Shown in pieces: positions 3,106-12,252 of a DNA stretch of 33,847 nucleotides. A program made the position numbers and the translations under genes. The DNA lies in NCBI GenBank assembly GCA_017465745.1, contig JAFTVM010000102.1, forward strand, positions 1 to 33,847, read 5' to 3'. Each line of letters opens with the position of its first letter. Position 1 is the stretch's first letter. Under the pieces are notes generated by a model. It did not search any database, had not been told where the DNA came from, and saw only the letters and a program-made list of their open reading frames with translations. The stretch is from Oscillospiraceae bacterium. GTDB taxonomy: Bacteria; Bacillota; Clostridia; Oscillospirales; Oscillospiraceae.

Positions 3106-3133
3106 TTGACACCAGAAAAAATAGTGGTAGAAT
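3106..3133 (+). promoter_or_regulatory. Promoter of leader ORF and MFS gene
   Basis: Consensus TTGACA (3106-3111), a 16-bp spacer and TAGAAT (3128-3133). The predicted start near 3140 leaves about 20 nt before the leader ORF, which is typical of attenuated resistance genes. Confidence 0.7.
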
Positions 3134-3161
3134 TAAGAAAAAACAGAAAGGAGAGCGCACC

Positions 3162-3266
3162 ATGGGCTGGAAAAACCAGGTAATTTATCAGCTGAAAGGC
3201 TATGTTCAGGCACCCTATGGGGGAGGTGCGCCCTTTTTGGGTAAAACTAATTATCATATATACTGA
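3162..3266 (+). CDS. 34-residue leader peptide upstream of MFS efflux gene
   Basis: ATG 3162 to TGA 3264-3266, with a strong ribosome binding site AGAAAGGAGAG (3145-3155). The peptide begins MGWKNQVIYQLKGY and ends KTNYHIY; it has no membrane segment. The coding sequence contains two RNA segments (3211-3216 and 3219-3228) that take part in alternative base pairing with the region in front of the MFS start. Its role is therefore probably regulatory: ribosome position on this ORF would decide whether the MFS ribosome binding site is open. Too short to assign by homology. Confidence 0.65.
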   Translation: MGWKNQVIYQLKGYVQAPYGGGAPFLGKTNYHIY

Positions 3267-3309
3267 AAGACACCTCCCTTTTTCTAAATCATCACGATTT
3301 GAAAGGGAG
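3211..3309 (+). promoter_or_regulatory. Translational attenuator in front of MFS gene
   Basis: Four RNA segments can pair in alternative ways. Segment 1 CACC (3211-3214) can pair with GGTG (3225-3228). Segment 2 GGGAGGTG (3221-3228) pairs perfectly with segment 3 CACCTCCC (3271-3278). Segment 3 also pairs with the MFS ribosome binding site: CTCCC (3274-3278) with GGGAG (3305-3309), TTTC (3281-3284) with GAAA (3301-3304), and AAATC (3286-3290) with GATTT (3296-3300). Pairing 3:4 hides AAAGGGAG; pairing 2:3 frees it. A ribosome stalled early in the leader ORF would favour the open form. The logic is inferred; the pairings are seen directly. Confidence 0.6.
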
Positions 3310-3316
3310 TATTTTT

Positions 3317-4402
3317 ATGTTCAACATCAAAAAACAAATACGCAATTTTTATATCATCAGCACCTTAAGCAGCTTCCAGATTGCCGGGGCTTCTTGGGTG
3401 GCACTGCTGGCAGCTCGTGGTTTTTCCTTGGCAGAGATTGGCATTGCTGAGGGCGTATTTCACATGGCAAGTCTGCTGTTCGAAATCCCTTCTGGGGTGA
3501 TCTCAGATGTATTCGGACGAAAAAAGTGCATGATATTGAGTCAATTTATGTTTATTATCTCGGCACTTCTAATGATCCTTTCTAAAGGTTTGCCAGGAAT
3601 ATGTGTCAGTTTGGTTGCCAGTGCCTTTGGTTATAATTTTGCCTCTGGCACACGAGAAGCCCTGGCATATGATAGTCTGAAGGTTGCAGGGCAGGAAGAA
3701 AGTTATCTGGCCTACTCATCCATGGAGTACAGTATTTACCGGATCGGTTCTGCCTGCGCTACTATGTGTGCCGGACTTGCTCTATATTTGGGCTATCGCC
3801 GTGCCAACCTAATAGATATGGCTATGGGAAGCCTTTGTTTGCTGTTTTGTTTCCGCCTAAAAGAAGTAGAAGCAGAGCAGCGTCAATTTGATGGAATATT
3901 GGGGCAGCGGTTGCTGCGGTGTTTTCGAGAGAGCTTTCATTTCTTAACTCACAATAGCAGTAGTCTTACACTGATGTTGTTCAACGCCTTTTGCGGCAGC
4001 ATCCCAGTTCTTACGGCCTTTTTCCTTCAAGCAAGGTTGACGGAAAACGGTCTGAGTGCTGTTTGGTTAGGGCCTGGTTTATTTGCCATCACCTTAGGCG
4101 GTGCAGTGGGAGCGAAAGCAGTTACAATAGTAGCAAAATGGGATTATCGGAAAGTTGCGGTTATGTGTGTGCTCGGTATTGCAGTCGGACTGGCACTGAG
4201 CCTACACACAACTCCTCTGGTAATGATTATTGGAGGCTTTATCGGCAATCTTTTCGACGATATGCTACAAGTGCGAACCGATGCGCTGTTGAACGAACGA
4301 TTCCCCTCTGCTCAGCGGGCCACACTGCTCTCGACATCCTCTCTGACTTTTTCACTGGTAATGATTCTGATGTCTCCTCTAATGGGATGGTTACTATCCT
4401 AA
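3317..4402 (+). CDS. MFS drug-efflux-type transporter
   Basis: I place the start at ATG 3317, 7 nt after AAAGGGAG, instead of the TTG at 3299. The product has 361 residues with about 11-12 membrane segments. The loop-2/3 motif of the major facilitator superfamily is visible as SGVISDVFGRKK near residue 60, followed by the GTREALAYDSL region seen in Firmicute drug-efflux members. It would pump a small molecule out at the expense of the proton gradient. The substrate cannot be read from sequence, but the leader-peptide attenuator points to a translation-inhibiting drug. GC content and codon use are lower than in the core neighbours, which suggests horizontal transfer. Confidence 0.85.
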   Translation: MFNIKKQIRNFYIISTLSSFQIAGASWVALLAARGFSLAEIGIAEGVFHMASLLFEIPSGVISDVFGRKKCMILSQFMFIISALLMILSKGLPGICVSLVASAFGYNFASGTREALAYDSLKVAGQEESYLAYSSMEYSIYRIGSACATMCAGLALYLGYRRANLIDMAMGSLCLLFCFRLKEVEAEQRQFDGILGQRLLRCFRESFHFLTHNSSSLTLMLFNAFCGSIPVLTAFFLQARLTENGLSAVWLGPGLFAITLGGAVGAKAVTIVAKWDYRKVAVMCVLGIAVGLALSLHTTPLVMIIGGFIGNLFDDMLQVRTDALLNERFPSAQRATLLSTSSLTFSLVMILMSPLMGWLLS

Positions 4403-4430: not shown

Positions 4431-4456
4431 CAGCCGGAGGTATACACCTCCGGCTG
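4431..4456. terminator. Hairpin downstream of MFS gene
   Basis: CAGCCGGAGGT (4431-4441) pairs with ACCTCCGGCTG (4446-4456) around ATAC, an 11-bp stem. No strong T run follows on either strand, so termination efficiency is uncertain. It sits between convergent genes. Confidence 0.5.
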
Positions 4457-4521
4457 TCACTGTATGTTGTTACCAATCCCGCCTGACAGATACCTGCCGT
4501 TTCGGGTGGTCTTTTCATATT

Positions 4522-5808
4522 TTACACGCTCTCCAGTGCCTGGGCGATATCCTCGATGAGGTCCTGGGTGTTTTCCAGGCCGCAGCTCAGTCGGATCAGG
4601 TCAGCACCCACGCCGGCGGCTTCCAGCTGCTCGTCAGTCATCTGACGGTGGGTGGCGGAGGCGGGATGCAGGCAGCAGGTACGGGAATCGGCCACATGGG
4701 TCTCGATGGAGCCCAGACGCAGATGCTTCATGAACACCTCGGCTGCCTTGCGACCGCCATTGAGACCGAAGGAGATGACGCCGCAGGAGCCGCCCGGCAT
4801 ATACTTTTTCGCCAGTTCATAATACTTGTCGCCCTCCAGGCCGCAGTACTTGACCCACTTGACCTTTTCGTGGTCCTTCAGATACCGGGCGATGGCCTGG
4901 GCGTTGGCGCAGTGCTGCTTCATGCGGAAGGGCAGGCTCTCCAGGCCCAGGTTCAGGATAAATGCGCTCTGAGGAGACTGGCCGCAGCCGAAGTCACGCA
5001 TCAGCTGGGCCGTACACTTGGTGATAAAGGCGCCGCCGAGGCCAAAACGCTCGGTGTAGGTGACGCCGTGGTAGCTGTCGTCGGGAGTGGTCAGGCCGGG
5101 GAACTTGTCGGCGTGGGCAGTCCAGTCGAACTTGCCGGAGTCGACAATAACGCCGCCCACAGCGGAAGCGTGGCCGTCCATGTACTTGGTGGTGGAGTGG
5201 GTGACGATGTCCGCGCCCCACTGGAAGGGACGGCAGTTGACGGGGGTGGCAAAGGTGTTGTCCACGATCAGGGGCACGCCGTGGGCGTGAGCAGCCTTGG
5301 CGAACTTCTCGATATCCAGCACCGTCAGCGCGGGGTTGGCGATGGTCTCACCGAAAACAGCCTTGGTGTTGGGACGGAAAGCAGCGTTCAGCTCCTCTTC
5401 CGTGCAGTCGGGATCGATGAAGGTGGTCTCCAGGCCCATCTTCTTCATGGTGACGGAGAACAGGTTGAAGCTGCCGCCGTAGATGGCAGAGCTGGCCACA
5501 ATGTGGTCGCCGCAGCCTGCGATATTGAACACCGCCAGGAAATTGGCGGCCTGGCCGGAGCTGGTCAGCATGGCGGCGGAGCCGCCCTCCAGGGCGCAGA
5601 TCTTGGCCGCCACCGCATCACAGGTGGGGTTGGCCAGACGGGAGTAGAAATAGCCCTCAGCCTCCAGATCGAACAGCTTGCCCATGTCCTCGGAAGTGGC
5701 ATACTTGAACGTGGTGCTCTGGATGATGGGGATCTGGCGGGGCTCGCCGTTGCCGGGGGTATAGCCTGCCTGGATACAAAGGGTTTCAGTGCGGAGCTTG
5801 GATTCCAT
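4522..5808 (-). CDS. metY: O-acetylhomoserine aminocarboxypropyltransferase (sulfhydrylase)
   Basis: A 428-residue PLP enzyme of the Cys/Met metabolism family that makes homocysteine from O-acetylhomoserine and sulfide (direct sulfhydrylation). The PLP lysine is K208 in THSTTKYMDGH; the cofactor aspartate is D183 in VDNTFATP; the substrate region YFYSRLANPT lies near residue 55. The full length and long insertion after residue 225 (KFPGLTTPDDSYHG) separate it from cystathionine gamma-synthase and lyase. The start has GAGGTGA upstream. Its leader is under 40 nt and contains no S-box or T-box, so it is probably not riboswitch controlled. Confidence 0.92.
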   Translation of the reverse strand: MESKLRTETLCIQAGYTPGNGEPRQIPIIQSTTFKYATSEDMGKLFDLEAEGYFYSRLANPTCDAVAAKICALEGGSAAMLTSSGQAANFLAVFNIAGCGDHIVASSAIYGGSFNLFSVTMKKMGLETTFIDPDCTEEELNAAFRPNTKAVFGETIANPALTVLDIEKFAKAAHAHGVPLIVDNTFATPVNCRPFQWGADIVTHSTTKYMDGHASAVGGVIVDSGKFDWTAHADKFPGLTTPDDSYHGVTYTERFGLGGAFITKCTAQLMRDFGCGQSPQSAFILNLGLESLPFRMKQHCANAQAIARYLKDHEKVKWVKYCGLEGDKYYELAKKYMPGGSCGVISFGLNGGRKAAEVFMKHLRLGSIETHVADSRTCCLHPASATHRQMTDEQLEAAGVGADLIRLSCGLENTQDLIEDIAQALESV

Positions 5809-5847
5809 AATGGGTCACCTCATAGTTTCGTTTATTTCCTGGTGTCC

Positions 5848-5876
5848 ATTGTAATCACATTTGCAAATCTTGTCAA
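5848..5876 (-). promoter_or_regulatory. Promoter of metY
   Basis: On the minus strand TTGACA (5871-5876), a 17-bp spacer and TACAAT (5848-5853): a near-consensus sigma-A promoter about 40 bp before the start codon. Confidence 0.8.
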
Positions 5877-5915
5877 CGGAATTTGTCGCCATGCCCGGCT
5901 GCGCCATTTTTCCTG

Positions 5916-5944
5916 TTGTATATATTGAAAAACTATGATATACT
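5916..5944 (+). promoter_or_regulatory. Promoter of rlmB
   Basis: TTGTAT (5916-5921), 17-bp spacer, TATACT (5939-5944). Divergent from the metY promoter. The rlmB start follows with CAGGAGA as ribosome binding site. Confidence 0.6.
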
Positions 5945-5985
5945 GTTAACATCTATAACTATTTCCAAAAACAGGAGATTTTACC

Positions 5986-6831
5986 ATGAAAGACAATAAG
6001 CGCCGTTTTGACGGCGAGCGTAAGAACGACCGCCCCGCCCACAGCGAGCGTCCCCGCCGGGCCGACCGGTTTGCAGAGCGCCAGGCAGTCGAAGAAGTCG
6101 AGGGCCAGCTGGAGGGCCGCAACGCCCTGACCGAGGCACTGAAGGCAGGCCGCACCATCGACAAGGTCTTCGTGGCCGAGGGCAACACCGACCGCAGCCT
6201 GCAGCGCCTGACCGCCCAGGCCCAGGAGGCCGGCGCCGTCATCGTCCCCGTTGACCGCCGGAAGCTGGACCAGATGTCCTTCACCCGTGCCCATCAGGGC
6301 GTCATCGCCCTGGCCGCCGCCCATGACTATTACACCATCGACGATATTCTGGCCGAGGCCGCTTCCCGTGGCCAGGCGCCCCTGATCGTCATCTGCGATG
6401 AGCTTTCCGACCCCCACAACCTGGGCGCCATCATGAGAAGCGCCGAGTGCGCCGGCGCCCACGGCGTCATCATCCCCAAGCGCCGCAGCGTTGGCCTGAC
6501 CGCCACCGTGGCCAAGGCTTCCGCCGGCGCCATGGAGTATATGAAGGTGGCCCGGGTCACCAACATCAATCATGCCATCGCCGATCTGAAGGAGAAGGGC
6601 GTCTGGGTCTTCGGTGCCGCCGGCGAGGGCTCCGTGCCCATGTACAAGGCAGACCTGACCGGCCCCGCTGCCATCGTCATCGGCAACGAGGGCGACGGCC
6701 TGAGCCAGCTGGTGCGCAAGAACTGCGACATGCTGGTCCACATTCCCATGGCCGGCCGGATCTCTTCCCTCAACGCCTCCGCCGCCGCTTCCATCCTGCT
6801 CTATGAAGCCGTCCGCCAGCGGCTGGGCTGA
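5986..6831 (+). CDS. rlmB: 23S rRNA 2'-O-ribose methyltransferase, SpoU/TrmH family
   Basis: The 281-residue product has a basic, probably disordered first ~40 residues. An SpoU substrate-binding domain (GRNALTEAL to ~110) follows, then a SPOUT methyltransferase domain (133-281). The three SpoU motifs are clear: N145-to-R151 in PHNLGAIMRSAE, IVIGNEGDGLS at 230-240, and IPMAGRISSLNASAAASI at 253-270. Family members methylate the 2'-OH of a guanosine in 23S rRNA (G2251 in E. coli) using SAM. The exact target site could differ. It is monocistronic, followed by a palindromic repeat element. Confidence 0.88.
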   Translation: MKDNKRRFDGERKNDRPAHSERPRRADRFAERQAVEEVEGQLEGRNALTEALKAGRTIDKVFVAEGNTDRSLQRLTAQAQEAGAVIVPVDRRKLDQMSFTRAHQGVIALAAAHDYYTIDDILAEAASRGQAPLIVICDELSDPHNLGAIMRSAECAGAHGVIIPKRRSVGLTATVAKASAGAMEYMKVARVTNINHAIADLKEKGVWVFGAAGEGSVPMYKADLTGPAAIVIGNEGDGLSQLVRKNCDMLVHIPMAGRISSLNASAAASILLYEAVRQRLG

Positions 6832-6850
6832 TTCAAACACCCTGCAACGG

Positions 6851-6952
6851 TAGGGGCTGATGCCCACATCAGTCCCATGCAGAATTGTACGTATTTGCAC
6901 GACACCAATCAATACACGTTTTCCCGAGGGTCGATGTGGGCATCGTCCCCTA
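6851..6952. repeat. 102-bp palindromic repeat element (MITE-like), copy 1
   Basis: The element starts TAGGGG (6851) and ends CCCCTA (6952). Its ~25-bp arms are inverted repeats of each other (GATGCCCACATC on the left, GATGTGGGCATC on the right), and each arm can also fold on itself. An offset inverted pair, CACCAATCA (6903-6911) with TGATTGGTG (6959-6967), spans the right arm. A 103-bp relative with the same architecture ends the window and a solo hairpin lies at 32957-32984. There is no coding potential. Confidence 0.75.
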
Positions 6953-6989
6953 TGCGAATGATTGGTGCCGATCGAAGGAGTGAATTCCT

Positions 6990-8990
6990 ATGAACGATAA
7001 GGAACTGGATCTGCGGGAGGACACCGTGGTCTTTGAGCCCCCCCTGGGAGATACCCAGCCCATCCCCGATCTGAAATCCGTCACCATACCGCCCCAGGAA
7101 GTGGACGCAGAGCCTGTGGCCGAGGCCGAAAATCCGGAACCCCCTGCTGTCCCCGGTCTGGATGGTTCCACCATCCGCCTGGATCAGCTGCCCCATCTGA
7201 ACGCCTCCTTTGTGGCGGCTCAGGAGGCAGCCATGGACAGGGAAATGCCTCAAATCGAGTCCTATGCCGCTCAGCCGGAGGATGACGAATCTGCCGGATA
7301 CATCCCCCCTGCCCGGATCATCGAGCACCCCCGCTCCCGAATGCGGGAGATCAAGCGTAAGCTGGTGGCCGGCCCCGAAAAGCGGTACTATGAGCTGTCC
7401 GAAAAGGGCACAGGCAAGCTCCAGCTGACCATCTTCCTGACGGTGGTGCTGGTGGCCCTCTCTGCGGGCGCTGCCGCCCTGTACGCCGCAGGCTTCGTGG
7501 GCACCGAGCGGATCCGGCTGATGATCTTCAGCCAGGTCATGATCATGATGATGGCCGCCCTGCTTGGCTCCGGCCGGATCATGGAGGGCGTGGGCGATCT
7601 GTTCGTCCGGGGCCGCTTTACCCTCAACACCCTGCTGGCTGTGACCTTTGTGGCCTGCTGTCTGGACGCGGTGTACTGCTTCCAGGAGGAGCGGGTCCCC
7701 ATCTGCGCCGCCTTCGCCCTGGAGGTGACCATGTCCCTGTGGGCCAATTACCACAAGCGCACCACGGAGCTGGGCCAGATGGACACCCTGCGCAAGGCTA
7801 CCCGCCTGGACGGCCTGTTCCGGGTGGAGGACTTCTATGACGGCAGGCCCGGCATCATCCGGGATCAGGGACAGGTGGAGGATTTCATGGATCACTACGC
7901 CGAACCCTCCCGCCCCGCTGAGCGGCAGAACCGCTATGCCCTGGTCAGCTGCTTCATCAGCCTGGCCATCGCGGTGGTGGCCGGTGTACTCAACGGCGTG
8001 CCCATGGCCATGCTGATCCTGTCCACCACACTGCTGGTTGCGGTACCCGCCAGCTTCTTCATTGCCCTGACCCGTCCCGCCGCAGTACTGGAGCGGAAGC
8101 TCCACCGGCTGGGCACCGTGATCTGCGGCTGGCAGGGTGTGGCAGGGCTTCTCGGCAGGCTGGCCGTGCCCCTGACCGACAACGACATGTTCCCCCGGGG
8201 CACCACCAAGATGAACGGCGTCAAGTTCTACGGCGACCACGACCCCGAAGAGGTGATCGCCTACGCAGCGGCACTGTTCCGGGCCACGGGCGGCGGTCTG
8301 GCGCCCCTGTTTGAAGACCTGCTGGTCAGCCGCAACGGCCCCCGGTACGACGCAGTCCGGGTCCGCAAGTATCCCGGCGGCGGCGTGGGCGGCGAGGTGG
8401 AGGGCGAGCCCGTTCTGGTGGGCACCCTGCAGTTTTTGAAGGACATGGGCGTGGAAGTCCCCGCCGGCACCATGGTCAACCAGGCGGTGCATCTGTCCAT
8501 CGACGGCCAGCTGGCAGGCCTGTTTGCCATCAATTACAACCGTTCCAAGTATTCCGCCTCCGGCCTTGCCACTCTGGGCGGCGACCGGAAGCTGACGGCG
8601 GTCATCACTGCCGGCGACTTCCTGCTCAACGACGATTTCCTCAAGAGCAAATTCGGCATCAGCCCAAAACGGGTGGCCTTCCCCGACCTGCGGGACCGGT
8701 TCAAGCTGAACCGGACAGGCCCCGAAGAGGGTGAGCCGGCACTGGCTCTGGTGACCCGGGAGGGTCTGGCCCCCGCAGCCTACGCCATCACCGGCGCCCG
8801 GGCCCTGCGGACGGCATACCACCTGGGTATGACCATCCACATCATCGGCGGCGTGCTGGGTATGCTGATCATGCTGGTGCTGGCGATCCTGGGCAGTGCC
8901 GAGCTGCTGACCCCCATCAACGTGCTGCTCTACCAGCTCATCTGGACAATTCCCGGTCTGCTGGTCACCACCTGGCCCAAGACCATCTGA
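6990..8990 (+). CDS. P-type-ATPase-like membrane protein lacking catalytic motifs
   Basis: A 666-residue protein: an acidic, proline-rich cytoplasmic N-terminus (1-140), membrane segments near 145-170, 177-196, 211-232 and 236-252, a pair at 317-361, and a final pair at 613-662. After the sixth helix, where P-type ATPases carry DKTGT, it has DNDMFPRGTTKMNG (397-410). This keeps the surrounding pattern but lacks the phosphorylated Asp-Lys-Thr. A degenerate nucleotide-domain pattern follows (EPVLVGTLQFL, then IDGQLAGLFAINYNRSK), but no TGD or GDGxND hinge. It is best read as a P-type ATPase pseudoenzyme of unknown role. Ribosome binding site GAAGGAG. Confidence 0.7.
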   Translation: MNDKELDLREDTVVFEPPLGDTQPIPDLKSVTIPPQEVDAEPVAEAENPEPPAVPGLDGSTIRLDQLPHLNASFVAAQEAAMDREMPQIESYAAQPEDDESAGYIPPARIIEHPRSRMREIKRKLVAGPEKRYYELSEKGTGKLQLTIFLTVVLVALSAGAAALYAAGFVGTERIRLMIFSQVMIMMMAALLGSGRIMEGVGDLFVRGRFTLNTLLAVTFVACCLDAVYCFQEERVPICAAFALEVTMSLWANYHKRTTELGQMDTLRKATRLDGLFRVEDFYDGRPGIIRDQGQVEDFMDHYAEPSRPAERQNRYALVSCFISLAIAVVAGVLNGVPMAMLILSTTLLVAVPASFFIALTRPAAVLERKLHRLGTVICGWQGVAGLLGRLAVPLTDNDMFPRGTTKMNGVKFYGDHDPEEVIAYAAALFRATGGGLAPLFEDLLVSRNGPRYDAVRVRKYPGGGVGGEVEGEPVLVGTLQFLKDMGVEVPAGTMVNQAVHLSIDGQLAGLFAINYNRSKYSASGLATLGGDRKLTAVITAGDFLLNDDFLKSKFGISPKRVAFPDLRDRFKLNRTGPEEGEPALALVTREGLAPAAYAITGARALRTAYHLGMTIHIIGGVLGMLIMLVLAILGSAELLTPINVLLYQLIWTIPGLLVTTWPKTI

Positions 8991-8996
8991 GCATGG

Positions 8997-9023
8997 AAAC
9001 CGCACCCTTTCGGGTGCGGTTTT
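8997..9023 (+). terminator. Terminator of the P-type-ATPase-like gene
   Basis: AAACCGCACCC (8997-9007) pairs with GGGTGCGGTTT (9012-9022) around TTTC, ending in a T run; six bases after the stop codon. Confidence 0.9.
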
Positions 9024-9038
9024 CTTATATTCCTGCCG

Positions 9039-9074
9039 CAAAAACACCCCGTCTGCTTTCAGCAGACGGAGTGT
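9039..9074 (-). terminator. Terminator of the transketolase operon
   Basis: On the minus strand ACACTCCGTCTGCT pairs with AGCAGACGGGGTGT (9061-9074 with 9044-9057, one G-T wobble) and is followed by TTTTT (9043-9039). Confidence 0.9.
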
Positions 9075-9088
9075 CGTATACAGGGGTC

Positions 9089-10030
9089 TTACTTGCCGCA
9101 GACTTCCTTGGCAACCTTGACGATGTTCTCAGCGGACAGGCCGAATGCTTTCAGCAGAGCGGCTGCGGGGCCGGAGTGGCCGAACTCGTCGTTGACGCCG
9201 ATGCGGCGCACCAGGGTGGGCTGCTTCTCTGCCAGCAGGGAGGCCACAGCCTCGCCCAGGCCGCCGATGACGGAGTGCTCTTCACAGGTGATGACCTTGC
9301 CGCACTTCTTGGCAGCAGCCAGCACCAGTTCGTCGTCCAGGGGCTTGATGGTAGCCATGTTGATGACCATGGCATCGATACCGGCGGCAGCCAGTTCCTC
9401 AGCGGCGGTCAGGGCCTCAGCGACCATCAGACCGTTGGCGATGATGGCGACATCAGCGCCGTCGCGGAGGGTCTCGCCCTTGCCGATGACGAAGGGCGTG
9501 CCTTCTTCATGGACAACGGGAACAGCAGCGCGGCCGAAGCGCATGTAGACGGGGCCAACATGCTCGTAAGCAGCCTTGACCATGGCCCGGGCTTCCACAT
9601 CGTCGGCGGGGCTCATGACCACCATGCCGGGGATGGAGCGCATCAGGGCAAAGTCCTCGCAGCACTGATGGGAAGCGCCGTCCTCACCGACGGAGATGCC
9701 GCCGTGGGTGGCGCCGATCTTCACGTTCAGGTGGGGATAGCCGATGGAGTTGCGGACCTGCTCGAAGGCGCGGCCGGCAGCAAACATGGCGAAGGAGGAA
9801 GCAAAGGGCACCAGACCGGTGGTGGACATACCGGCGGCCACGCAGATCATGTTGGCCTCGGCAATGCCGCAGTCATAGAAACGGTCGGGGAAGGCCTTCT
9901 TAAAGGTGCCGGTCTTGGTGGCGCCGGCCAGGTCGGCATCCAGAACCACGATGTTGTCGTGCTTTTCACCCAGCTCCACCAGAGCCTTGCCATAGGATTC
10001 TCGGGTAGCGATCTTCTTTACGTCTGCCAT
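9089..10030 (-). CDS. Transketolase, C-terminal subunit
   Basis: A 313-residue protein covering the pyrimidine-binding and C-terminal domains of transketolase. The conserved region runs from DADLAGATKTGTFKKAFPDR through the FDCGIAEANM-type motif (YDCGIAEANM) to GATHGGISVGEDGASHQ and RIGVNDEFGHSG. It pairs with the upstream gene to form a split heterotetrameric enzyme, as in many Firmicutes and archaea. Transketolase moves two-carbon units between sugar phosphates in the pentose phosphate pathway. The glutamate activating the thiamine ring is in GIAEAN. One base separates it from the upstream subunit's stop codon. Confidence 0.92.
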   Translation of the reverse strand: MADVKKIATRESYGKALVELGEKHDNIVVLDADLAGATKTGTFKKAFPDRFYDCGIAEANMICVAAGMSTTGLVPFASSFAMFAAGRAFEQVRNSIGYPHLNVKIGATHGGISVGEDGASHQCCEDFALMRSIPGMVVMSPADDVEARAMVKAAYEHVGPVYMRFGRAAVPVVHEEGTPFVIGKGETLRDGADVAIIANGLMVAEALTAAEELAAAGIDAMVINMATIKPLDDELVLAAAKKCGKVITCEEHSVIGGLGEAVASLLAEKQPTLVRRIGVNDEFGHSGPAAALLKAFGLSAENIVKVAKEVCGK

Positions 10031-10031
10031 A

Positions 10032-10877
10032 TCACTTGCCCTCCAGTTCAGAAAGAATTGCGTTCAGTTCGTTCATTGCCTGCTCGTACTCGGCATCATT
10101 GGGCGCCTTGCCGTGCCAGCCGGCCTGGTTCTCCATGAAGGAGACATTCTTGCCCTTGGTGGTCTTCATGACGATGGCAGAGGGCTGCCCCTTGACTTCC
10201 CTGGCCCGCTCCAGCGCGGCCTCGATCTGGTTAAAGTCATGGCCGTCAATGTGGTTGACGTGGAAGCCGAAGGCTGCCAGCTTGTCGCCGATGGGATAGG
10301 GGCTCATGACGTCAGCAACGTCGCCGTCGATCTGCAGGCCGTTGTTGTCCACGATGACCACGAAGTTGTCCAGCTTGTAGTGGGCTGCCAGCATGCAGGC
10401 CTCCCAAACCTGGCCTTCCTGGATCTCACCGTCACCCAGCAGGGTGTAGACCCGGGCGGTGCTGCCCTGGTGCTTCAGGCCCAGGGCCATACCGGCGGCG
10501 CAGGAGATGCCCTGGCCCAGGGAACCGGTGGACATGTCCACGCCGGGAACGGTGTTCATATTGGGATGGCCCTGCAGGTAGGAGTCGATGTGGCGCAGGG
10601 TGGGCAGGTCGGATACGGGGAAGAAGCCGCGCAGCGCCAGTGCGGCGTACAGGCCGGGTGCAGTGTGGCCCTTGGAAAGGACGAAGCGGTCACGGCCTTC
10701 CCACTTGGGGTTGGCGGGGTCCACGTTCATTTCCTTGAAGTACAGATAGGTGAACATGTCAGCTGCGGACAGGCTGCCGCCGGGATGGCCGGCCTTGGCG
10801 CCGTGGGTGGATTCGATCACGCCCATGCGGACCTTGCAGGCAGTTTTCTGCAGCTGGATCTTCTCGCTGGATGTCAT
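10032..10877 (-). CDS. Transketolase, N-terminal subunit
   Basis: The 281-residue product is the pyrophosphate-binding half of a split transketolase. The thiamine diphosphate/Mg motif starts GDGEIQEG at 148 and ends with NNGLQIDG near 178. The N-terminal histidine regions HGAKAGHPGGSLSAAD and SKGHTAPGLYAAL are intact. AAGGAGG precedes the start. It is the first gene of a two-gene operon with its own promoter and a terminator beyond the partner. Confidence 0.93.
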   Translation of the reverse strand: MTSSEKIQLQKTACKVRMGVIESTHGAKAGHPGGSLSAADMFTYLYFKEMNVDPANPKWEGRDRFVLSKGHTAPGLYAALALRGFFPVSDLPTLRHIDSYLQGHPNMNTVPGVDMSTGSLGQGISCAAGMALGLKHQGSTARVYTLLGDGEIQEGQVWEACMLAAHYKLDNFVVIVDNNGLQIDGDVADVMSPYPIGDKLAAFGFHVNHIDGHDFNQIEAALERAREVKGQPSAIVMKTTKGKNVSFMENQAGWHGKAPNDAEYEQAMNELNAILSELEGK

Positions 10878-10911
10878 AGTATTCCTCCTTAAGTATTGTT
10901 AGGACATGCTT

Positions 10912-10947
10912 GTATACAGTATACTACCCCGCCCGAAGTCTTGTCAA
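10912..10947 (-). promoter_or_regulatory. Transketolase promoter with overlapping palindrome
   Basis: TTGACA (10942-10947), an 18-bp spacer and TATACT (10918-10923) on the minus strand. The perfect palindrome GTATAC-A-GTATAC (10912-10924) covers the -10 box, a position suited to a repressor. A near-identical palindrome lies in front of the CcdA-like gene (33675-33687). Confidence 0.65.
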
Positions 10948-11001
10948 CCGCCGCCGGGTGAAATCTATGTTATTGCCGAAAAATGCGGTCAAAATATGGA
11001 G

Positions 11002-11029
11002 AAACGGTGCAGAAAATTCTGCACCGTTT
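11002..11029. terminator. Terminator of AI-2E family gene
   Basis: AAACGGTGCAGAA (11002-11014) pairs with TTCTGCACCGTTT (11017-11029) with a two-base spacer. It lies 21 bases after the stop of the minus-strand gene and is nearly symmetrical, so it could act in both directions. Confidence 0.75.
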
Positions 11030-11049
11030 TCATTGTTTCAAGGCTTCAG

Positions 11050-12252
11050 CTACTTTTTCCCGGCCCGGTATTGCCGGTACTCCGTCAACGTGTCCTCGCA
11101 GCCCTGCTTGCGCAGTCCCCGGAACACAAGACGGCGGATCAGGTCATAGATGACCGCAAACAGCGGCACAGCCACCACCATGCCCACCAGGCCCCACAGG
11201 CCGCCGAAGAGCAGAATGGAGAACAGCACCCAGAAGCTGGATACGCCGGTGGCGTCGCCCAGGATCAGCGGGCCGATGACGTTTCCGTCCAGCTGCTGCA
11301 GCGCGAATACGAAGATCACAAACCACAGTGCCTGGATGGGGTTTTCAATGAGGATCAGCAGCGTGGCGGGGATCGCGCCCAGGAAGGGGCCGAAGAAGGG
11401 GATCACATTGGTGACGCCCACGATGGCAGACACCAGCAGGGCATTGGGGAATTTCAGGATGCTGCAGCCGATGTAGCACAGCACGCCGATGATCAGGGAA
11501 TCGACTATCTTGCCCTCGATGAAGCCGCCGAACATCTTGTCCACGAACTTGATCTCCTCGATCACCAGCTCCGCCCACCGGGGCTTCAGCGCAGCGCGGA
11601 TGAGCAGTGCGCCCTGCCGCTTGAAGAGGTTCCGGTTGGCCAGCAGATACAGCGCCGCAATGATGCCGATGAGGAAATCCATCAGGAAATTCAGCACCCG
11701 CATCACGCCCATACCCACGCCGCTGACAATATTGGAAATATAGGGCACCAGGGTATTTTCCGCCCAGGTATCCACCGCGTCATAAATGGTGTCATAGCTG
11801 GTATTCAGGTAGGCCAGGATCTGCTGCAGCTCCTCGCTGTCGCCGTACTTCTCCTGGAACCAGTTGAACAGGTCCTCCACTTCCCCGGGCAGGGAATTCC
11901 AGATGGAGACGATGCTGTCCACCAGCTGGGGTACCATCATGATGATCAGCACATAGACGATCAACGCGCCGGAGAGCATGCTCAGCGTCAGGGCAATTGG
12001 CTCTGCCCATTTTTTCTGCTTCTGCGGCAGGATCCGGCTGAAGAAACCGGAGTATTTGTTGCACATGGGACGCAGCAGATAGGCAATGACGCCGCCATAG
12101 ACGAAGGGCATCAGGATATCTTTGATCTGCCGCACCACGTCGCCCAGGGCCTGGGCCCGGTATAGGATGAAGAAGAACGCCACACTGAGGCTGATGGCAC
12201 CGAAGCCCGCCAGCATGCCCAGAATATAGGGTCTGTTCTGCGGTTTGTTCAT
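11050..12252 (-). CDS. AI-2E family (PerM/UPF0118) membrane transporter
   Basis: A 400-residue protein with about eight membrane segments. A large extracytoplasmic or re-entrant region (residues ~110-190) is rich in acidic and aromatic residues. The conserved C-terminal family blocks are present: KFPNALLVSAIVGVTNVIPF, FFGPFLGAIPATLLILI and LDGNVIGPLILGD. Members include permeases implicated in autoinducer-2 export and in Na+(Li+)/H+ exchange, so substrate assignment by family name alone is unsafe. A good -10 box and an inverted repeat precede it. Confidence 0.85.
   Translation of the reverse strand: MNKPQNRPYILGMLAGFGAISLSVAFFFILYRAQALGDVVRQIKDILMPFVYGGVIAYLLRPMCNKYSGFFSRILPQKQKKWAEPIALTLSMLSGALIVYVLIIMMVPQLVDSIVSIWNSLPGEVEDLFNWFQEKYGDSEELQQILAYLNTSYDTIYDAVDTWAENTLVPYISNIVSGVGMGVMRVLNFLMDFLIGIIAALYLLANRNLFKRQGALLIRAALKPRWAELVIEEIKFVDKMFGGFIEGKIVDSLIIGVLCYIGCSILKFPNALLVSAIVGVTNVIPFFGPFLGAIPATLLILIENPIQALWFVIFVFALQQLDGNVIGPLILGDATGVSSFWVLFSILLFGGLWGLVGMVVAVPLFAVIYDLIRRLVFRGLRKQGCEDTLTEYRQYRAGKK

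Follow-up and report, generated by a model that had tools for sequence, protein, structure and literature searches.

A probable ribosome-mediated attenuator upstream of an MFS exporter gene, with relatives in Clostridia and Treponema

The window, that is, the whole stretch of DNA analysed, comprises positions 1 to 33,847 of the forward strand of contig JAFTVM010000102.1 (GCA_017465745.1) from an Oscillospiraceae bacterium. Within it a promoter, a short leader ORF, a set of alternative RNA segments and an MFS exporter gene follow one another on the plus strand (Table 1). The promoter, described as strong in the original prediction, matches 11 of 12 consensus bases and carries TG ahead of its second hexamer, a consensus match only. 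The 34-codon leader with a good ribosome binding site (RBS) was likewise found as predicted, AAAGGAG lying 8 nt upstream of the leader ATG. The leader-MFS unit is flanked by two terminator-like hairpins of 11 pairs each, of which the one at 2887-2912 scores on both strands and the one at 4431-4456 on the minus strand only.

Table 1. Features of the leader-exporter unit (positions in the window)
Feature	Position	Strand	Basis or remark
Sigma-70-type promoter, TTGACA-16 nt-TAGAAT	3106..3133	+	consensus match only
Leader RBS AAAGGAG (3147-3153) and next bases, also segment 1a	3147..3161	+	sequence, fold, swap test
Leader ORF, 34 aa, MGWKNQVIYQLKGYVQAPYGGGAPFLGKTNYHIY	3162..3266	+	ATG at 3162, stop 3264-3266
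Trp3 codon	3168..3170	+	invariant, 25/25 Clostridia-type leaders
Gly13 (invariant, 25/25) and Tyr14 codons, predicted stall position	3198..3203	+	conservation, footprint folding
Segment 1b, GCACC	3210..3214	+	can pair with 3225-3229 (sequence); swap test
Segment 2, GGGGGAGGTG, inside leader ORF	3219..3228	+	conserved as RNA
Segment 3	3271..3280	+	ON: paired with segment 2; OFF: its 3' part and following bases paired with segment 4
3:4 hairpin, 14 pairs, over MFS RBS AAAGGGAG (3302-3309)	3274..3309	+	fold, covariation
U-tract TATTTTT, directly after 3:4 stem, abuts MFS start	3310..3316	+	terminator-like
MFS exporter, 361 aa	3317..4402	+	distantly related to drug efflux proteins of the HP1165 and TetA(P) type

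The stems that had been proposed are present. The stretch GGGAGGTG (3221-3228) inside the ORF has its perfect complement, CACCTCCC, after the stop codon at 3271-3278, and the second complement, over the MFS RBS, forms exactly the 14 pairs expected of the 3:4 stem (3274-3282 with 3301-3309, and 3286-3290 with 3296-3300). The 2:3 stem takes up 3219-3228/3271-3280, and one segment is common to the two stems. The MFS RBS is enclosed in the OFF hairpin, as in translation attenuators of the ermC type, with a computed P(3:4) of 0.92 in the absence of a ribosome. The RNA from 3134 to 3330 has a folding energy of -51.7 kcal/mol (z -2.47), a stability matched by 2 of 200 shuffles. In 20000 dinucleotide shuffles of 3162-3300, with 3301-3319 held fixed, an 8-nt leader/spacer complement arose 996 times, an exact complement of the RBS octamer 109 times, and both complements through one common segment 6 times. 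The 2:3 complement alone is thus an event of about 5%; the combination is not. The suggested 1:2 stem CACC/GGTG is possible (GCACC 3210-3214 with GGTGC 3225-3229), but in the minimum-energy fold the segment 2 tail is instead bound to the leader RBS region (GCGCACC 3155-3161 with GGTGCGC 3225-3231), and AAAGG pairs with the T-run. Segment 1 seems to include the RBS region of the leader itself.

The exporter is related only distantly to described families. In protein alignment A3, which covers 34 of the 44 loci introduced below (omitted: L015, L020, L024, L027-L029, L031, L032, L033 and L035), the family models score weakly: HP1165 in 34/34 members, TetA(P) in 31/34 and Tet(40) in 14/34. Membership in the Tet(40) or TetA(P) family was rejected, the window protein reaching 24.2 of 800 and 22.5 of 750 bits of the respective NCBIfam cut-offs. 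A PDB profile search returned one weak match (3wdo, E 7e-4) that is uninformative on substrate. The MFS frame is ended by an early stop in L032 (274 aa) and L035 (115 aa). Among plasmids, 49 records matched the protein, all below 60% identity. The gene had been called acquired, and this agrees with its absence from 60 same-genus genomes (0/60 at E <= 1e-30) and with a G+C content of 41-49% over the gene versus 53-68% at 4501 to 12000, although the stretch 1-1800 is also low (39-48%).

Homologues of the exporter were collected in two sets. The first consists of 33 homologues from genome contigs, all of them MAGs, labelled Clostridia, Lachnospiraceae and similar, or Treponema/Spirochaetaceae; over the best segment two are 89% identical and the others 38-53%. 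The second contains 14 further homologues from 391 class genomes (E <= 1e-40). The original prediction named homologous loci that lack the leader, or in which both stems are broken, as the evidence that would speak against it. A leader with an equivalent of segment 2 is present upstream of the MFS gene in 32 of the 33 loci, and a leader in 12 of the 14, where it adjoins the gene in 11 and is displaced by an inserted element in one. No leader was seen at L014, where the contig ends with only 182 nt upstream, and none upstream of the MFS gene at L043 and L052. At L043 a hairpin resembling 3:4 is kept upstream of the MFS gene and no leader ORF was seen. In the displaced case (G443) the leader is intact about 1.7 kb from the MFS gene, and between the switch and the MFS start lies a 408-aa ORF (L113, 912-2138, minus strand), which we take to be an IS91-type transposase; the pump there should be uncoupled from the switch. 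The analyses below use 44 loci (the window, 32 and 11), 25 of the Clostridia type and 19 of the Treponema type.

The distribution of the leader follows that of the exporter in the genomes searched. The leader model R1, built without the Treponema rows, gave 13 strong matches in the 391 class genomes (E <= 2.7e-12; next best 2.6e-4), and all 13 positive genomes are among the 15 that carry the MFS gene; 12 of these leaders had gone into building the model, so that their match is a given, whereas G443 had not. In 398 phylum genomes the window's own leader was the sole strong match. Of the 19 Treponema leaders R1 misses two, L017 and L021, and recovers 17, at E 5e-6 to 2e-3. Fourteen loci with weak matches were examined by eye, and several are presumably terminators, transposase or recombinase ends, or 6S-like RNA. 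Neither the leader DNA of L018 nor a leader-like peptide matched plasmids. The pattern TACGGGGATAGTGCNCC had two matches in viral contigs (L037 and L038), seemingly near-identical phage gene regions, which were judged to be chance. At the Rfam gathering score there was no match for the window or for 9 homologous loci, and the accessible portion of the open-licence PMC literature yielded no description of the leader peptide.

Three further loci, read by eye, resemble the leader to varying degrees. In the window's own genome (L112, G000:C113:46726-46758, minus strand) a leader-like ORF, MDQWNHCMLRRVSQGVHALLLEG, is followed by AGGGGTAGTGCGCC and a terminator-like hairpin, ahead of a 143-aa HNH_repeat domain protein; it may be a second attenuator. 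At L003 (1325-1381) an MFS protein of about 30% identity has a leader that is divergent, MLFTWYIPMLSSWKNAFNAAADGITAPFFSL, and that shares the TGCGCCCTTTTT motif. L102 (1501-1546) has a short ORF, MVNYYDSTVGLAY, which ends just ahead of GGGAGTAGTCTGCCCTTTTTT, and no exporter was noticed in the stretch inspected.

The leader is constrained in two different ways along its length. Over codons 2-14 of the Clostridia type (25 leaders, 24 distinct) pN/pS is 0.45 in frame versus 1.35 and 1.17 when the two other frames are read. All 25 leaders have Trp3 and Gly13. Codons 15-19 are variable, three of the 25 leaders having a stop at codon 19, so the peptide sequence past this codon seems unneeded. The commonest codons at positions 20-23 are GGG (19 of 25), GAT (13), AGT (20) and GCG (19). 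Every Ser22 is encoded by AGT (20/20) and every Ala23 by GCG (19/19), which indicates constraint at the nucleotide level. The check for constraint on the leader thus came out in favour of the original prediction, with protein-level conservation up to codon 14 and RNA-level conservation beyond it in these 25 leaders. The Treponema leaders (19, of which 9 are distinct over codons 2-13) give a weaker signal (0.61 versus 0.79 and 1.45) and have Gly12 in 10/19 and Cys12 in 8/19. The coding constraint supports the view that the leader is a translated short ORF, and codons 1-14, the conserved part, are probably also the part that stalls.

Covariation of the stems was measured per locus by duplex because the MAFFT alignment A1 misregisters the window-type segment 3 by one base, and swap controls were used because duplex counting leans to canonical pairs. 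Over the 25 Clostridia-type loci the native 2:3 duplexes average -18.65 versus -14.59 kcal/mol when swapped, and the 3:4 duplexes -14.66 versus -11.23 kcal/mol; no permutation in 20000 reached the native value for either stem; in this run the MFS start was misplaced by a few codons at L040, L042, L044 and L047-L051. As these swaps ignore kinship, the test was repeated with one locus for each of the 8 versions of segment 2 and with re-set MFS starts. Of 40320 permutations, 4 were equally strong for 2:3 and 55 for 3:4, and each row's own partner was the best in 5 of 8 rows for 2:3 and in 6 of 8 for 3:4. Individual positions change together: at position 5 of segment 2, 9 of the 25 loci have G-C, 13 have A-U and 3 have another canonical pair, and at position 6, 9 have A-U, 13 have U-A, 2 have C-G and 1 has U-G. 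For the pairing between the leader RBS region and the segment 2 tail, 3 of 20000 swaps were as strong (24 distinct Clostridia-type loci), and for that between the codon 13-19 stretch and segment 2, 132 of 20000. The covariation predicted for 2:3 and 3:4 is thus present in the Clostridia type, where it supports two mutually exclusive stems. In the Treponema type it was not significant for either stem: among 16 distinct loci 15027 of 20000 swaps for 2:3 and 4204 of 20000 for 3:4 were as strong, in a test whose fixed segment-3 window misses the candidate segment 3 at some loci.

The effect of a ribosome on the leader was modelled by keeping the nucleotides from -14 to +16 relative to each P-site codon unpaired. 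This footprint is assumed, and the exact best codon depends on it. The mean accessibility of the pump RBS in the Clostridia type (n=25) is 0.02 without a ribosome, 0.11 at codon 12, 0.20 at codon 13 and 0.00 from codon 16 on; when a second ribosome occupies the start codon, the value at codon 13 is 0.35. The Treponema-type mean (n=19) climbs from 0.13 in the ribosome-free RNA to 0.49-0.50 with codon 12 or 13 in the P site; from codon 16 it is back at about 0.1. A rise of at least 0.1 is found at codons 11-15 in 17/25 Clostridia and 18/19 Treponema loci, and at codons 17-24 in 0/25 and 3/19. The rise stays below 0.1 in 8 of the 25 Clostridia-type loci, and the absolute mean opening is modest (0.20). 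The best codon falls within 11-15 at 19/25 and 16/19 loci and outside at 6/25 and 3/19; with a second ribosome, codons from 11 on being tried, it is codon 12-15 in 25/25 Clostridia-type loci. The peak of the Clostridia mean, P-site codon 13, is the invariant Gly that was found independently from the protein side. A ribosome placed there covers segment 1b if it has the footprint assumed.

The folding of the window's own RNA is less clear-cut. Under a lone ribosome the full-length RNA stays OFF, with P(2:3) at or below 0.04 at all 16 codons tried. A trailing ribosome on the leader RBS and start brings P(2:3) to 0.92-0.97 at codons 12-15 and to 0.60 at codon 30, with 0.09 at codon 16. When the RNA ends at 3285, P(2:3) is 0.71, 0.99 and 0.87 at codons 13, 14 and 15, and 0.00 at codon 12 and at the codons tried from 16 to 25; it is also 0.99, 0.67 and 0.59 at codons 1, 3 and 10, 0.89 at codon 30 and 0.31 without a ribosome. 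Because 2:3 also forms at codons 1, 3, 10 and 30, codon 13 does not stand out in the folding of the window RNA. In silico, the mean over loci has a clear peak at codon 13, which the full window RNA with a single ribosome does not show.

The U-tract after the 3:4 stem suggests a second function for this hairpin. With re-set MFS starts, the last 8 nt ahead of the pump gene contain 5 or more T in 25/25 Clostridia-type loci and in 0/19 Treponema loci; the same holds for 5 of 81 other ORF starts, taken from the same loci and five further ones. The Clostridia-type hairpin therefore looks like a terminator and an RBS lock in one, and may also terminate transcription; it is not among the results of a terminator scan that permits loops of 3-8. 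The Treponema hairpin looks like a lock at most. The Treponema loci differ in another respect. Their promoters match at least 9 of 12 consensus bases in 19/19 loci (TTGACA in 18, a spacing of 17 in 18), and in 19/19 (L011-L035) the distance from the end of the -10 box to the leader ATG is exactly 9 nt. The predicted 5' UTR is therefore about 2-3 nt, with no leader RBS, and judged by this predicted start site the Treponema leader ORFs look leaderless, which makes it puzzling that they could drive an attenuator.

We consider the window unit to be a ribosome-mediated attenuator of the pump, with a probability of about 0.8. Homologous leaders and folds stand before related pumps, which makes a real switch very probable, and the four-segment design linked to the MFS gene, as originally proposed, has drawn support from conservation, coding constraint, covariation and footprint folding alike. 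The parts, the coding constraint, the Clostridia covariation and the codon position that best opens the switch are computed results; the course of events proposed is as follows. In the uninduced state ribosomes would read through the leader or fail to load, and segment 2 would be covered or held by segment 1. The 3:4 hairpin would then lock the MFS RBS and, together with the U-tract, probably also end transcription. On induction the leader ribosome would stall at or beside Gly13, in a manner dependent on the nascent peptide, namely Trp3 and the residues up to 13; the trigger would most likely be a ribosome-targeting compound exported by the pump. The stalled ribosome would cover segment 1 and end just before segment 2, which could then pair with segment 3, free segment 4 and allow the pump to be made. 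We infer that the pump is induced by a ribosome-targeting drug and exports its inducer.

Other readings of the same parts differ in what they make of the hairpins. The switch might act on translation alone, the 3:4 stem locking the RBS and the U-tract being an incidental spacer. The Treponema type, in which the leader is kept, the RBS hairpin is seen at several loci and no U-tract occurs (0/19), indicates that the lock may work without termination; this reading is nevertheless rather unlikely given a U-tract at every Clostridia-type locus and at so few other ORF starts. The logic might also be inverted in the window type, with 2:3 followed by TTTTT (3279-3283) as the terminator and 3:4 as the read-through form. 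There is a T-run after segment 3 in the window, L004 and L005, but TTAAC-like sequence stands there in 11 Lachnospiraceae-type rows of A1, and the 2:3 loop of 42 nt is long for an intrinsic terminator. Moreover, 3:4 would still lock the RBS, so that neither form would be ON, and we regard the inverted arrangement as most improbable.

The nature of the signal is a separate matter. Instead of a drug-specific stall, the leader could sense any slowing or loss of its translation, through starvation or many inhibitors, that frees segment 2. Segment 2 lies within the ORF and would be covered by passing ribosomes, and the RNA ending at 3285 forms 2:3 at codons 1, 3 and 10, and in part without a ribosome. 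A general sensor of this kind is unlikely, however, as codons 2-14 are conserved as amino acids with Trp3 and Gly13 fixed, and the mean opening is confined to codons of about 12-15; both argue for a positioned stall. A stall tied to glycine alone was also considered, since bottromycin A2 causes pausing exclusively when Gly enters the A site of the ribosome, the P- and E-site codons being irrelevant to it, according to the available part of PMC13410324. The first Gly codon is codon 13 in 22/25 Clostridia-type leaders. Gly is, however, already present at codon 2 in the window, L004 and L005, and the eight Treponema leaders with Cys12 have no Gly in codons 1-14. In addition, residues 3-12 are conserved despite the irrelevance of P- and E-site codons to the drug (PMC13410324, same part), and the Clostridia mean opening is greater with codon 13 in the P site than with codon 12. 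An inducer of the bottromycin type is thus very doubtful, and a stall that depends on the nascent peptide remains the preferred reading.

Attenuator leaders reveal the compounds to which a resistance gene answers. A conserved and probably stalling peptide in gut and rumen MAGs points to an inhibitor that these communities may meet, and the leader could serve as a biosensor to find it. A broader reading, to which we give somewhat less than even chances, is that of an undescribed arrest-peptide sensor of the pattern M-x-W-K/I-T-x-N-I/L-Q/H-L-x-x-G, shared by two phyla and attached to one exporter family, with a merged terminator-lock in Clostridia and a leaderless, terminator-free form in Treponema, responding to a class of compound that known leaders do not sense.

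Several known systems resemble the unit in part. The leaders of tet ribosomal-protection genes are also short ORFs upstream of a resistance gene in Clostridia genomes, but they read, by eye, MRQGILK (L119-L125) and MRHSIFK (L118). Membership in this tet(M/O/W)-type leader family was rejected, R1 matching 0/11 of the loci L118-L128, 8 of which are above the tet_protect cut-off. A macrolide leader was rejected as well, for there is no R/K-X-R/K motif at the predicted stall, where residues 12-14 are K/N/F, G and Y/F/S/N in 25/25 Clostridia-type leaders. A NusG-type pause was also discarded: TTNTTT, the NusG pause motif, follows segment 2 in just 9/44 loci. The tlrB (yxjB) gene of Bacillus subtilis, in the part of PMC6851288 that was available, likewise combines transcription and translation attenuation and has a required leader peptide and an RBS-locking hairpin, but its 9-aa leader ends in RYR and it needs NusG-dependent pausing; the string TTNTTT does not occur in that part of the text. 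The mef(E)/mel system is similar in that a leader peptide governs an MFS drug exporter and a stalled ribosome permits an anti-attenuator form; it differs in its 8-aa leader, MTASMRLR, and in a terminator (R5/R6) that is followed by a stem-loop (R7/R8), as given in the accessible sections of PMC4335068. Attenuators of the ermC type (erm, cat, cmlA and fexA) share the short leader, the alternative RNA structures and the locking of the resistance-gene RBS until a ribosome stalls (PMC5418344, available sections). Compared with the leaders described there, the peptide found here is unlike, with about 14 conserved residues, segment 2 is within the ORF and a U-tract follows the locking hairpin. On this evidence the kind of attenuator is known, and its novelty lies in the peptide, in the merging of terminator and lock and in the leaderless version.
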